Source: Methanomethylovorans hollandica DSM 15978 (GTDB lineage: Archaea > Halobacteriota > Methanosarcinia > Methanosarcinales > Methanosarcinaceae). Taken from it: DNA of 64,000 nt. The translations under genes and the position numbers were made by a program. This document shows, piece by piece, positions 14,796 to 18,010 of the stretch. The notes beneath the pieces are model-generated. The model was not told the DNA's origin and made no database searches. It was given only the letters and a program-made list of their open reading frames with translations. Positions within the stretch are counted from its first letter, which is position 1; every line of letters starts with the position of its first letter. The DNA is taken from NCBI RefSeq assembly GCF_000328665.1, contig NC_019977.1, positions 1,914,011 through 1,978,010 of the forward strand, read 5' to 3'.

Positions 14796-15299
14796 TCATG
14801 ATACGTTTACTCCTTTTACGCTTTTTAGATTGAGCAGCTTTTCTACTACTTCTCCAGAGATCTTACTGTCAGTGATGATTGTAAGGCGTGGCTCACTCGT
14901 AAAATAAGGATCATCAGAAACAGCCTGCCTTATACTGATCCCATGATCTGAGATCACACCTGCGACATCTGCGATTATGCCCGAATGTGCTGCATCATCT
15001 GGAATTATGATTATTACCCCAAGACCAAGAGAAGGAGCTACATCCCGTAGAAGTGGCATTGAATGAACTTTCTCAAATATATTTTTCAAAAGAGGATCTT
15101 CAAGTATAGCCTCTGTAGTAGAGTCCACCACACGCCTGTCCACCCCTACCTCCCGGGCAAGCTGGGTATGGGGGATCTCTATCTTACCGGATGTAACCTT
15201 TCCATCTTGATTGACCTGAAAACCCCTCTCAAAAAGAAGCCTTATGACTTTCTGCTGTGCTGGGTGTTTTTCGAATTTTTGCATTATGGAGCTCCACAT
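14796..15299 (-). CDS. HTH-ACT domain regulator of amino-acid metabolism
   Basis: This 167 aa protein has an N-terminal helix-turn-helix (TQLAREVGVDRRVVDSTTEAI, in two parts around residues 46-66). A C-terminal ACT-type domain (GLGVIIIIPDDAAHSGIIADVAGVISDHGISIRQ region, then EPRLTIITDSKISGE) follows. It matches the archaeal COG2150-type ACT regulators, which sense small molecules such as amino acids. The start at 15299 is supported by a box TTTATAATTT about 25 bp upstream, which would give a leaderless mRNA. It is convergent with the flavoprotein gene and divergent from the Re-citrate synthase candidate, whose product leads to glutamate. Confidence 0.85.
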   Translation of the reverse strand: MWSSIMQKFEKHPAQQKVIRLLFERGFQVNQDGKVTSGKIEIPHTQLAREVGVDRRVVDSTTEAILEDPLLKNIFEKVHSMPLLRDVAPSLGLGVIIIIPDDAAHSGIIADVAGVISDHGISIRQAVSDDPYFTSEPRLTIITDSKISGEVVEKLLNLKSVKGVNVS

Positions 15300-15312
15300 G
15301 GTCTATAGATTG

Positions 15313-15333
15313 GCTTTTAAATTATAAATCCTT
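15313..15333 (-). promoter_or_regulatory. TATA box for the HTH-ACT gene
   Basis: On the minus strand GGATTTATAATTTAAAAG lies centred about 25 bp before the ATG at 15299. That is the standard archaeal distance from TATA box to transcription start, so the gene is probably leaderless; no ribosome binding site is visible in front of it. Confidence 0.6.
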
Positions 15334-15516
15334 AAGGTAGATAAACAAAGAAAACCTTTTAATCTGAACACACATGTAGAATAGCAGTATTTTGTACACA
15401 CCTGCCAGGATGATCTGGTGATCTATAGGATCATTTAGGATTATGCCTTTAAAAGCAGGCTGTGAACTTTTTATTTTGCCAGAATAGAGTTATGTTGACG
15501 CTGTTGGAGGAAATAT

Positions 15517-16818
15517 ATGAAGACATACCGGGACTATGATGACCTGCCTAAGATAGAACTTCCCTATGGGAAGGAGGTGTCGATCAGTGACAGTACTTTG
15601 AGGGACGGAGCCCAGATGCCGGGCATTGTTATGAGAAGCAAGCACAAAGTGCAGATATACGAATATCTGCATATGATCGGCATTGAAAAACTGGAAACCT
15701 TTGTCTATAATGAAAGGGATAGAAAGGCTATCAAGCTTATGCAGGACAAAGGGTATGAATTCCCGGAAATAACAGGATGGGCCCGTGCAAATCCTGCGGA
15801 TATCGACATGGTCCTTAATGTTGACGGAATAGAAGAAACAGGCATACTCATGTCCGTGTCGGACCCCCATATCTACGATAAGATGAAACTTCCTACCAGG
15901 GAAGCAGCTCAGGAAAAGTATCTCAATGCTTTACAATATGCAGTAGACCACGGATTGCGGACACGCGCTCATATAGAAGATATGACCCGTGCCGATAATT
16001 ATGATTTCGTTTTCCCCCTGGTAGAAAAGATACTTGAAATCGATCCAGACTGCACTATCCGGATCTGTGACACCATAGGATATGGCATCCCTTTTATGAA
16101 TGTGGATGAACCCTACGGAATACCCACTATTGTCAAATACCTGAAAAATGAACTCGGTGCAAAGAACATAGAAACTCACTGCCATGATGACTTCGGGCTT
16201 GCAGTTGCAAACTCTCTGGCAGGCTACTGGCACGGTGCCAACTGGTCTAATGTGACGTATCTGGGCATTGGCGAGAGAGCAGGTAATGCAGAAATGGAGA
16301 AACTTTTGGTATTCCTCAAAAGGCGCATCAAGGGTTTTGAGAAATATGACCTGAGCTGTCTTGTGGAATTTGCTAAATTTATGGAGAAGGAGATCGGCAT
16401 ACGGATACCCAGGAATAAATCCGTGGTGGGACAGAATGTATTTGCTCACGAGTCGGGCATCCATACGGCAGGCGTCATCAAGAATCCCTTCACATATGAA
16501 CCATATCCGCCCGAGATAGTTGGGGGCCAAAGGAACTTCCTCATAGGGGATTCTTCGGGAATTGAGGTGCTTAAGTTCAAAGTACAGGAAACACTAAAAG
16601 AAATGATGGATGTTCACATAGAGGTAGATAAGAACGATAAGCGTCTAAGGAATATACAGGCAGACATTCAGAGACTCTTCAATGAAGATGAGAGAGTTTC
16701 CTGCATTTCCGATGAGGAGATCCGCGCCTATGTCAAAAAATACTTTATGTTCAACCCCATAGTGGACCAGGAGCTGCATCGCAGAGAGGATGACGAAAGT
16801 CCGGATAACACAATCTGA
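15517..16818 (+). CDS. Candidate Re-citrate synthase (homocitrate/isopropylmalate synthase family)
   Basis: The 433 aa protein belongs to the HMGL-like acyl-CoA condensing family: SDSTLRDGAQMPGI near residue 27, the metal-site motif ETHCHDDFG near 225, and GIGERAGNAEME near 250. The stretches EETGILMSVSDPHIYDK, HIEDMTRADNYDF and RICDTIGYGIPF resemble, from memory, the Re-citrate synthase group described from Clostridium kluyveri rather than LeuA or AksA. Directly facing it lies an isocitrate dehydrogenase, and Methanosarcina is known to make 2-oxoglutarate oxidatively without a classical citrate synthase. The product would be citrate from oxaloacetate and acetyl-CoA. Homocitrate or isopropylmalate synthase remain alternatives. 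A GGAGG precedes the ATG. Confidence 0.75.
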   Translation: MKTYRDYDDLPKIELPYGKEVSISDSTLRDGAQMPGIVMRSKHKVQIYEYLHMIGIEKLETFVYNERDRKAIKLMQDKGYEFPEITGWARANPADIDMVLNVDGIEETGILMSVSDPHIYDKMKLPTREAAQEKYLNALQYAVDHGLRTRAHIEDMTRADNYDFVFPLVEKILEIDPDCTIRICDTIGYGIPFMNVDEPYGIPTIVKYLKNELGAKNIETHCHDDFGLAVANSLAGYWHGANWSNVTYLGIGERAGNAEMEKLLVFLKRRIKGFEKYDLSCLVEFAKFMEKEIGIRIPRNKSVVGQNVFAHESGIHTAGVIKNPFTYEPYPPEIVGGQRNFLIGDSSGIEVLKFKVQETLKEMMDVHIEVDKNDKRLRNIQADIQRLFNEDERVSCISDEEIRAYVKKYFMFNPIVDQELHRREDDESPDNTI

Positions 16819-16879
16819 AGCAAACAACAAGAAATTAAACCACGCATGTATGGCGAAGTGGACTGAATTGTAAAAAACA

Positions 16880-16930
16880 AGTGGTGCTAACTGTAAAAAG
16901 CAGTTATGTCCACCACTAATATTCTTTTTT
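16880..16930 (+). terminator. Terminator between Re-citrate synthase candidate and icd
   Basis: AGTGGTG at 16880-16886 pairs with CACCACT at 16911-16917, with an inner AACTG/CAGTT stem, followed by ATTCTTTTTTG. It lies between two convergent genes and may serve the plus-strand one; on the minus strand the tail is not T-rich. Confidence 0.65.
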
Positions 16931-16981
16931 GAAATCTTAACTAAAATGGGTTAAATGAGATTGTATAAAAAAGCGAAGCTG

Positions 16982-18010
16982 TTACTTCAGCTCCTCTGCA
17001 GTATATTTTGCGATCGTATTTGTCATTTCACTAAGCTTTGCATTGCCTCCCAGGTCATAGGTAACATACTTACCTTCAGATATGACACGCTCAGTAGCCC
17101 TGAATATAGCGTCTGACTGTGCGGATTCACCCAGATATCCGAGCATCCAGGCACCTGCAAGCACTGTTGCTACAGGATTCACTTTATCCAATCCAGCATA
17201 TTTGGGTGCAGAACCGTGAGCTGGCTCGAACATGGCGAAATTATCGCCTATATTGGCAGAATATATCAGGCCGATGCTTCCCACAAGAGCAGAACATTCC
17301 TCACTGAGCACATCCATGAACAGGTTCGTGGAAAGTAATACTTTGTTGTTGAATATCTGCGGGTTCTTAATCAGCTGCTGTGCGATATTGTCGATGTGGT
17401 ATTCCCACACTTCAATACCCGGATATTTCTGAGCTGTCTTGTTGACTTCTTCCAGGAACAGGCCACATGTGCGCCTGAGAATATTACTCTTGTGGATAGC
17501 CACAACGGTATCATAATTTCTTCTTTTGGCCTCCTCAAAAGCATATCTTGCAACCTTGCCGCTTGCTGTGCGAGTGATCTTCCTAATGGCTATGGCCACA
17601 TCATCGGTGAGACGTATCTCCTCGCCCACATACAGCCCTTCCGTACCTTCACGGACACACACAAAATCAACATCACCAAGAGGTCTGCTGGTGTTCGGGA
17701 AGGTCTTGATGGGGCGCACGTTGGCATAAAGATCATATTTCTGCCTGATAGAAACAGCCACGCTTCTAGGGGCTCCCACTATACCAGGGGTTGTTGTAGG
17801 ACCCTTGTAACATGCATTAGAATCGTCAAGTATATCCCAGGTCTCATCAGGGACAAGAGAATTTCCACCATGCTGCTCCCACCATGTGGCACCGGCATCA
17901 CAGGTTATGAACTCCACATCAGTTCCGGCAGCTTCCATTACCTTGAACATCGCATCCACAAGTTCGGGACCTACACCATCTCCTTTAATTACTGCTGCAG
18001 TCTTGCTCAC
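16982..18010 (-). CDS. icd: Isocitrate dehydrogenase, NADP-type signature
   Basis: The 342 aa protein is a beta-decarboxylating dehydrogenase that oxidises a 2-hydroxyacid such as isocitrate to 2-oxoglutarate. GDGVGPELVDA starts the fold, SIRQKYDLYANVRP carries substrate-binding arginines, and HKSNILRRT and the EPAHGSAPKYAG segment follow. In the last, Lys-Tyr after Pro corresponds to the pair that selects NADP in E. coli Icd; NAD-dependent relatives usually have Asp-Ile. The position equivalent to Asn115 of E. coli Icd appears to be Ala, so an isopropylmalate or homoisocitrate role is not excluded. The facing citrate-synthase candidate favours isocitrate. Confidence 0.78.
   Translation of the reverse strand: MSKTAAVIKGDGVGPELVDAMFKVMEAAGTDVEFITCDAGATWWEQHGGNSLVPDETWDILDDSNACYKGPTTTPGIVGAPRSVAVSIRQKYDLYANVRPIKTFPNTSRPLGDVDFVCVREGTEGLYVGEEIRLTDDVAIAIRKITRTASGKVARYAFEEAKRRNYDTVVAIHKSNILRRTCGLFLEEVNKTAQKYPGIEVWEYHIDNIAQQLIKNPQIFNNKVLLSTNLFMDVLSEECSALVGSIGLIYSANIGDNFAMFEPAHGSAPKYAGLDKVNPVATVLAGAWMLGYLGESAQSDAIFRATERVISEGKYVTYDLGGNAKLSEMTNTIAKYTAEELK

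Follow-up and report, generated by a model that had tools for sequence, protein, structure and literature searches.

We have identified a candidate archaeal Re-type citrate synthase in Methanomethylovorans hollandica DSM 15978, encoded next to an isocitrate dehydrogenase (IDH) gene within a 64,000-nucleotide stretch of contig NC_019977.1 (positions 1,914,011 to 1,978,010, forward strand; hereafter the window). The protein, given the working name X, is the product of the open reading frame (ORF) at 15517-16818 on the plus strand, and the product of 16982-18010 on the minus strand is termed the window IDH. We put the probability that X is a Re-type citrate synthase feeding the window IDH at roughly 0.83. 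X would join acetyl-CoA and oxaloacetate into citrate on the Re face, as an enzyme of the DRE-TIM type that is unrelated to the classical Si-citrate synthase (Si-CS). A further aconitase would isomerize the citrate: AcnA here, and in relatives AcnB, a LeuCD-type pair or an aconitase of ~650 amino acids (aa). The IDH facing X would yield 2-oxoglutarate for glutamate, probably with NADP. Sequence, a phylogenetic tree, an active-site signature, distribution among genomes and the history of the locus were observed, and from these catalysis, Re stereochemistry, metal and cofactor are predicted. In the source species X would work beside a classical synthase, and in many relatives it appears to be the only candidate. 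The X group would add a new branch, from archaea, to a kind of enzyme that is already known, with strong support from genomic context.

Results

The 2,714,013-base genome (code G000) consists of two contigs. ORFs within the window were taken from an open-reading-frame listing, domains were assigned using Pfam, and subfamilies were assigned using NCBIfam cut-offs. The two genes at the center of this study are as follows:

15517..16818, plus strand: X, predicted Re-type citrate synthase, 433 aa, ATG start, DRE-TIM acyltransferase without the LeuA dimer domain (domains, tree, orthologs)
16982..18010, minus strand: multimeric isocitrate dehydrogenase, 342 aa, GTG start, predicted NADP type, convergent with X (ORF, alignment, locus comparison)

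X matches PF00682 (HMGL-like; 7e-40) and PF22617 (homocitrate synthase post-HMGL domain; 6e-14), and has the DRE-TIM acyltransferase fold with the metal-binding HxH and RDG motifs (PF00682; motif alignment). It scores below every NCBIfam cut-off, the top model being LEU1_arch (265 bits vs. 485). Its matches among solved structures are homocitrate, isopropylmalate and citramalate synthases, together with more distant lyases or aldolases, and none is named Re-citrate synthase. Of 60 relatives, 52 have an ortholog of X, with 64-97% identity compared with 33-41% for paralogs, and given this gap the ortholog set is not due to chance. An X-like gene on plasmids was considered and rejected, as the best matches among the 30 plasmid records listed reach 28-37% identity and, where annotated, are mostly citramalate, isopropylmalate or homocitrate synthases.

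The DRE-TIM synthases inventoried in the whole genome are LeuA (513-aa frame), CimA (503), AksA (398) and X, with the two long synthases named LeuA and CimA from their placement in the tree. One more match, weak and partial, is a 597-aa frame that we presume, partly from its length, to be pyruvate-carboxylase-like. The beta-decarboxylating dehydrogenases are LeuB, an AksF-type enzyme (LEU3_arch, 459 bits, above the cut-off) and the window IDH, while the aconitase family comprises two LeuC-type subunits and one AcnA-size aconitase. Because LeuA, CimA, AksA, LeuB and the AksF-type enzyme cover leucine, isoleucine and coenzyme B, X and the window IDH are left over.

Phylogeny and active-site signature

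The tree of 84 rows held 17 of 33 X proteins, 12 of 30 Chloroflexota-class and 12 of 30 Syntrophales proteins, plus LeuA, CimA, AksA and selected named loci; the NifV label is our own assignment to cyanobacterial and clostridial/actinobacterial rows, with a nifV annotation seen for the cyanobacterial one. X, Chloroflexota and Syntrophales proteins formed a single clade outside LeuA, CimA, AksA and NifV (bootstrap 100; Shimodaira-Hasegawa-like approximate likelihood ratio 99), and the grouping of X with Syntrophales was retained at 99.7 once the Chloroflexota rows were removed. The X group alone was supported at 92/72 and could be paraphyletic. The first-pass annotation had named placement inside LeuA or AksA as an outcome that would speak against a Re-citrate synthase; X lay outside both, and the approximately unbiased (AU) test rejected its union with LeuA (p 0.0006), AksA (p 0.0022) and NifV (p 0.0141).

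The Syntrophales clade contains a 634-aa protein of genome G649, which we take to be Syntrophus aciditrophicus, and the protein to be its characterized Re-citrate synthase. A mass of ~72 kDa, estimated from the 634-aa length, agrees with the subunit size of that enzyme, which was reportedly the subject of a study by Kim in 2013 (cited in PMC6469976). If the G649 protein is indeed the S. aciditrophicus enzyme, X groups with a characterized Re-citrate synthase. The S. aciditrophicus synthase is treated as a known enzyme in PMC12016533.

Thirteen alignment columns are common to X, Chloroflexota and Syntrophales and rare in the other rows. One of them, His152 of RxHxED, is present in 93 of 93 rows from these three groups vs. 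4 of 85 others. Alignment to 6ktq indicates that X retains the Arg of the homocitrate-synthase motif RxSxED, with a His two residues further. In homocitrate synthases we take this Arg to bind the distal carboxylate of 2-oxoglutarate, with Ser or Thr occupying the position two residues on, and we infer that a His there would shorten the pocket of X to suit oxaloacetate.

Bathyarchaeota/Brockarchaeota proteins appeared as sisters of X in the first tree only, a placement that was lost after bacterial rows were added. These DRE-TIM proteins (L214-L217) form a branch of their own at 36-40% identity to an X relative, with the His of HxED present. The sole IDH-adjacent case among 75 loci, L368 (G680:C191, 3349 bases), is a Methanosarcinaceae-like X-IDH contig in a Syntrophales genome, with X and IDH at 75% and 83% identity; it is probably contamination of a Syntrophales bin.

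Distribution of X and the classical synthase

The first-pass annotation took Methanosarcina to have no known classical citrate synthase, a premise that fails for this organism. The source genome has a PF00285 gene (G000:C2:1118627-1119691; E 8e-129) with a 943-aa AcnA-size aconitase directly upstream, the pair spanning G000:C2:1115285-1119691 outside the window, and the Methanosarcina acetivorans control genome likewise matches PF00285. The core of that annotation, X as a Re-citrate synthase candidate, stands: the tree, the signature and a distribution complementary to that of the classical enzyme all support such a prediction.

Counts for the 60 relatives were taken from listings, with Si-CS genes split between contigs or pieces included. 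X was found in 52 genomes, Si-CS in 30 and the IDH ortholog in 47. X occurred without Si-CS in 25 genomes, with a broken Si-CS in two (G013, in-frame TAG; G036, 49-residue remnant) and with Si-CS in 25; five genomes had Si-CS only and three had neither. The latter three are all less than 90% complete and lack the IDH ortholog; PF00285 matches weakly in G049, one of the three. Every genome bearing the IDH ortholog (47/47) has X or the classical synthase. Several of the 60 genomes are incomplete, which makes single absences weak evidence; stronger is the absence of Si-CS throughout g2, g4 and f4, and throughout f3 except for the weak G049 match. Within genus g9, X is present in all six sampled genomes, whereas only two have the full classical gene, one has it interrupted by a TAG and three retain a remnant; in genus g3, X is present in 8/8 and PF00285 absent from 7/8.

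A phylum-wide sample of 295 genomes of at least 90% completeness gave X in 84 and PF00285 in 185, counts that are non-independent owing to kinship. All 61 sampled members of the order have X, with some PF00285 match in 53 and none in eight. Among the 23 X-bearing genomes outside the order, a strong PF00285 match was found in none and a weak one in eight (E 8e-22 to 7e-37). Weak PF00285 matches in families f6, f10, f20 and f28 (1e-19 to 1e-37) are perhaps ATP-citrate-lyase-like proteins.

The G013 genome is presumably that of M. mahii. In addition to the in-frame TAG, its classical gene (L160) has Cys for Arg in GFGHRVYK, which makes rescue by pyrrolysine appear less likely and X, given its predicted function, the natural substitute. 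In published work the gene is designated a pseudogene with an amber codon, for which pyrrolysine has been proposed (PMC3017947).

The isocitrate dehydrogenase and its replacement

The window IDH scores below all NCBIfam cut-offs (LEU3_arch 317/410, AksF2_Meth 317/540, IDH PRK08997 307/510). The Lys-Tyr pair that had been read as a hint of NADP is present (APKYAG...KVNP). Taking the NADP determinants to be Lys344, Tyr345, Val351, Tyr391 and Arg395 in E. coli numbering, four of these five positions match, including the Val of KVNP and the Tyr of VTYD, and the Arg395 position departs from the expectation with Gly. The enzyme is probably of the NADP type. The genome's own LeuB (L168:1091-2215) bears the same Lys-Tyr pair, so the pair informs on cofactor and not on substrate.

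The substrate is addressed by what has happened at the locus in relatives. A survey of 23 loci (8/8 g3 and 15/18 g5 genomes) found a monomeric IDH at 17, an intact multimeric IDH at four (among them G215, which we take to be M. burtonii), neither at two (L299, L166) and both intact at none. In G007 (g3), the IDH next to X is fragmented, and nearby is a 741-aa monomeric NADP-IDH (TIGR00178, 1291 bits vs. 950; PF03971). At L287, L289 and L164, an N-terminal and a C-terminal fragment of the old IDH flank the monomeric gene, all on the same strand. Such an in-place takeover by a monomeric isocitrate dehydrogenase implies that the replaced neighbor had the same function, and this, together with its standing as a third dehydrogenase beside LeuB and the AksF-type enzyme, bears out the earlier identification of the partner. 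G007 also encodes AcnB (TIGR00117, 1394 bits vs. 1287), with AcnA and PF00285 both absent from the genome; lacking PF00285, it has X as its sole candidate for citrate formation. G022 has the full X gene and, ~2 kb further downstream, a partial duplicate covering residues 226-432 (L166:10066-10686); the IDH gene is absent from the stretch of L166 examined.

Operons with LeuCD-type pairs

In 8 of 33 wide loci, X is adjoined by an IDH (c1) and by a pair of genes resembling LeuC (c2) and LeuD (c3). The gene order is X-c1-c2-c3, with overlaps, at L141, and X-c2-c3-c1 on one strand at L134. In f15 and f28, c1 is just 41-43% identical to the window IDH and has the canonical RSVNV..R loop; as far as sequence tells, IDHs of three kinds thus occur as partners of X. 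Those c2 and c3 proteins that were scanned score as LeuCD/HacAB subfamily members, none passing an equivalog. The small-subunit loop of c3 reads GKYKYDELD (GKYKFDTLD in f15) vs. GKYLRT in AksE-type and GRYL in LeuD-type proteins, and we take YLRT to be a homoaconitase mark. Representative loci are:

L138:3280-5045; L141:9028-10790; L184:1488-3251: third-class LeuC/LeuD-type hydro-lyase pairs, loop GKYKYDELD

These pairs are possibly two-subunit aconitases. In M. paludicola (G075), X and the IDH ortholog are accompanied by a third LeuCD pair at 68%. An aconitase-family protein beyond LeuC and, where present, AksD was found in each of 20 genomes: AcnA-size in six, AcnB in G007, ~650-690 aa in three and LeuC-type in ten, the typing being read partly from sizes and best matches. 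We lean, by a small degree, towards viewing X, a LeuC/LeuD-type aconitase and IDH as a third complete Leu-type paralog set in archaea, an old Re-citrate route spanning Methanosarcinia, Methanocella and several lineages in which MCR was not found, onto which AcnA/Si-CS, AcnB and monomeric IDH would have been grafted later through replacement.

Flanking regulator and intergenic regions

The remaining features of the locus in the window are:

14796..15299, minus strand: TrpY-family transcription regulator, 167 aa, divergent from X (TrpY_fam match)
15300..15516: intergenic region common to the regulator and X, with a single TGTACA at 15393 (gap comparison)
16819..16981: convergent X/IDH intergenic region, 163 bases (ORF listing)

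The ORFs confirm the gene layout described in the first-pass annotation, with an IDH-like gene convergent with X and a helix-turn-helix (HTH) regulator divergent from it. The regulator had been called an HTH-ACT amino-acid regulator; its divergent placement holds and it passes NCBIfam TrpY_fam (235.9 bits vs. a cut-off of 180), identifying it as TrpY-family, while its ACT match is under the Pfam cut-off (21.7 vs. 27). All 24 loci examined from g3, g5 and g9 have a TrpY-like gene upstream of X in divergent orientation (truncated in two by the end of the stretch); none of the three loci examined from g8 and g12 has one there. No conserved TrpY operator was found, as the TGTACA of the window gap is missing from the 14 other gaps compared. 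Alongside the predicted Re-citrate synthase and isocitrate dehydrogenase, the proposal of a glutamate-precursor locus is supported.

Discussion

If true, our assignment would fill published gaps in the 2-oxoglutarate supply of relatives without the usual citrate synthase, and would mean that annotation labels such genes as isopropylmalate or homocitrate synthases. X occurs in G013 (presumably M. mahii), in M. paludicola (G075) and in a member of Ca. Methanogasteraceae (L207), which we take to be the anaerobic methanotrophic (ANME) lineage ANME-2c. A tree neighbor of L207, G041, belongs to family f3, where X is present in 5/6 genomes and PF00285 is missing from 5/6 and weak in G049. An ANME-3 genome was not identified among the genomes searched for X. 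M. paludicola is said to lack most tricarboxylic acid cycle genes (PMC3146512), a reversed ATP-citrate lyase would be required in ANME-1 and ANME-2c (Chadwick 2022, PMC9012536) and ANME-3 has no complete route (PMC9012536). In the literature covered, mainly open full texts, no archaeal gene is assigned Re-citrate synthase activity, save for one sentence on Re-citrate synthase homologs in Methanothermobacter (PMC3087415).

Several points weigh against the proposed function. The tree lacks the Re-citrate synthases of C. kluyveri, Dehalococcoides and the Heliomicrobium/Thermoanaerobacter type, and the tree program flagged the join of Chloroflexota and Syntrophales as long branches meeting. None of 74 bacterial homologs has IDH or aconitase nearby, within short flanks. 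We take the isocitrate-binding loop of IDH to be S-x-N-V-x-x-R; the window IDH has SVAV, with Ala for Asn, in 12 of 12 orthologs aligned, whereas known IDHs have SVNV. The full loop is present in the distant c1 partners of G173, G076, G068 and G245; AksF-type enzymes have SVLL or SVIL, and LeuB has GILL or GVLL. G076 has MCR and the X operon, with AksA not found, and X might serve coenzyme B synthesis there. Finally, M. paludicola is reported to need L-glutamate (PMC3146512), though X, IDH and the third LeuCD pair are present.

The best-surviving alternative, which we nonetheless regard as improbable, is that X is a second homocitrate synthase, serving coenzyme B or acting as NifV for nitrogenase, with a homoisocitrate dehydrogenase as its neighbor. 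The PF22617 domain, the conserved carboxylate-binding Arg of AksA and the equal scores of the window dehydrogenase with AksF2_Meth and LEU3_arch, both below cut-off, are consistent with it, as is G076. Set against these are the separate AksA and AksF-type dehydrogenase of the source genome, the AU rejection of X with AksA and with NifV, and the replacement of the partner in g3 and g5 by a monomeric enzyme that matches an isocitrate dehydrogenase equivalog. Moreover, a search for MCR alpha in 12 X-bearing genomes from outside the order found no match in eight of them, and AksA was not found in G097, G064, G173 and G076, three of which are without MCR. Coenzyme B synthesis was rejected as a general role of X on this inventory and distribution, with G076 as the exception.

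Somewhat less probable still is that X joins acetyl-CoA, or some other acyl-CoA, to yet another 2-oxo acid in a pathway yet to be recognized, to which the proximity of IDH would be incidental. The bare surroundings of the bacterial homologs and the retention of both X and Si-CS in 25 of 60 genomes would fit such a case, but X pairs with three different IDH lineages and its distribution is complementary to that of Si-CS. It is very improbable that X is a paralogous LeuA or citramalate synthase serving the leucine or isoleucine pathway. Its closest NCBIfam models are isopropylmalate synthase subfamilies, but the genome has both LeuA and CimA, with a longer C-terminal part absent from X, the union with LeuA is rejected, and the Arg-x-His-x-Glu-Asp motif is unlike either.

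Comparison with known systems

As a Re-type citrate synthase, X would have its closest counterpart in the Re-citrate synthase of S. aciditrophicus and C. kluyveri (EC 2.3.3.3). With the presumed S. aciditrophicus enzyme it shares the DRE-TIM type, RxHxED, the PEITGW and ETGI stretches and the clade. The two differ in that the latter is 634 aa with an extra C-terminal part vs. 433 aa for X, at ~32-34% identity, and X adjoins IDH whereas the bacterial homologs examined do not. AksA and NifV share with X the fold and the metal-binding HxH, and AksA also the Arg of RxSxED, but they form separate clades whose union with X the AU test rejects, lack the His two residues after the Arg and, for AksA, coexist with X in the genome. 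The Heliomicrobium/Thermoanaerobacter/Dehalococcoides-type Re-citrate synthase belongs to the same superfamily and has the reaction predicted for X; it is reported to form a distinct clade, ~28% identical to the Syntrophus type (PMC12016533). Si-citrate synthase (PF00285) has the same predicted reaction and pathway position as X but comes from an unrelated family; it is lost or absent in many X-bearing relatives, and in the source genome it lies elsewhere, beside AcnA.

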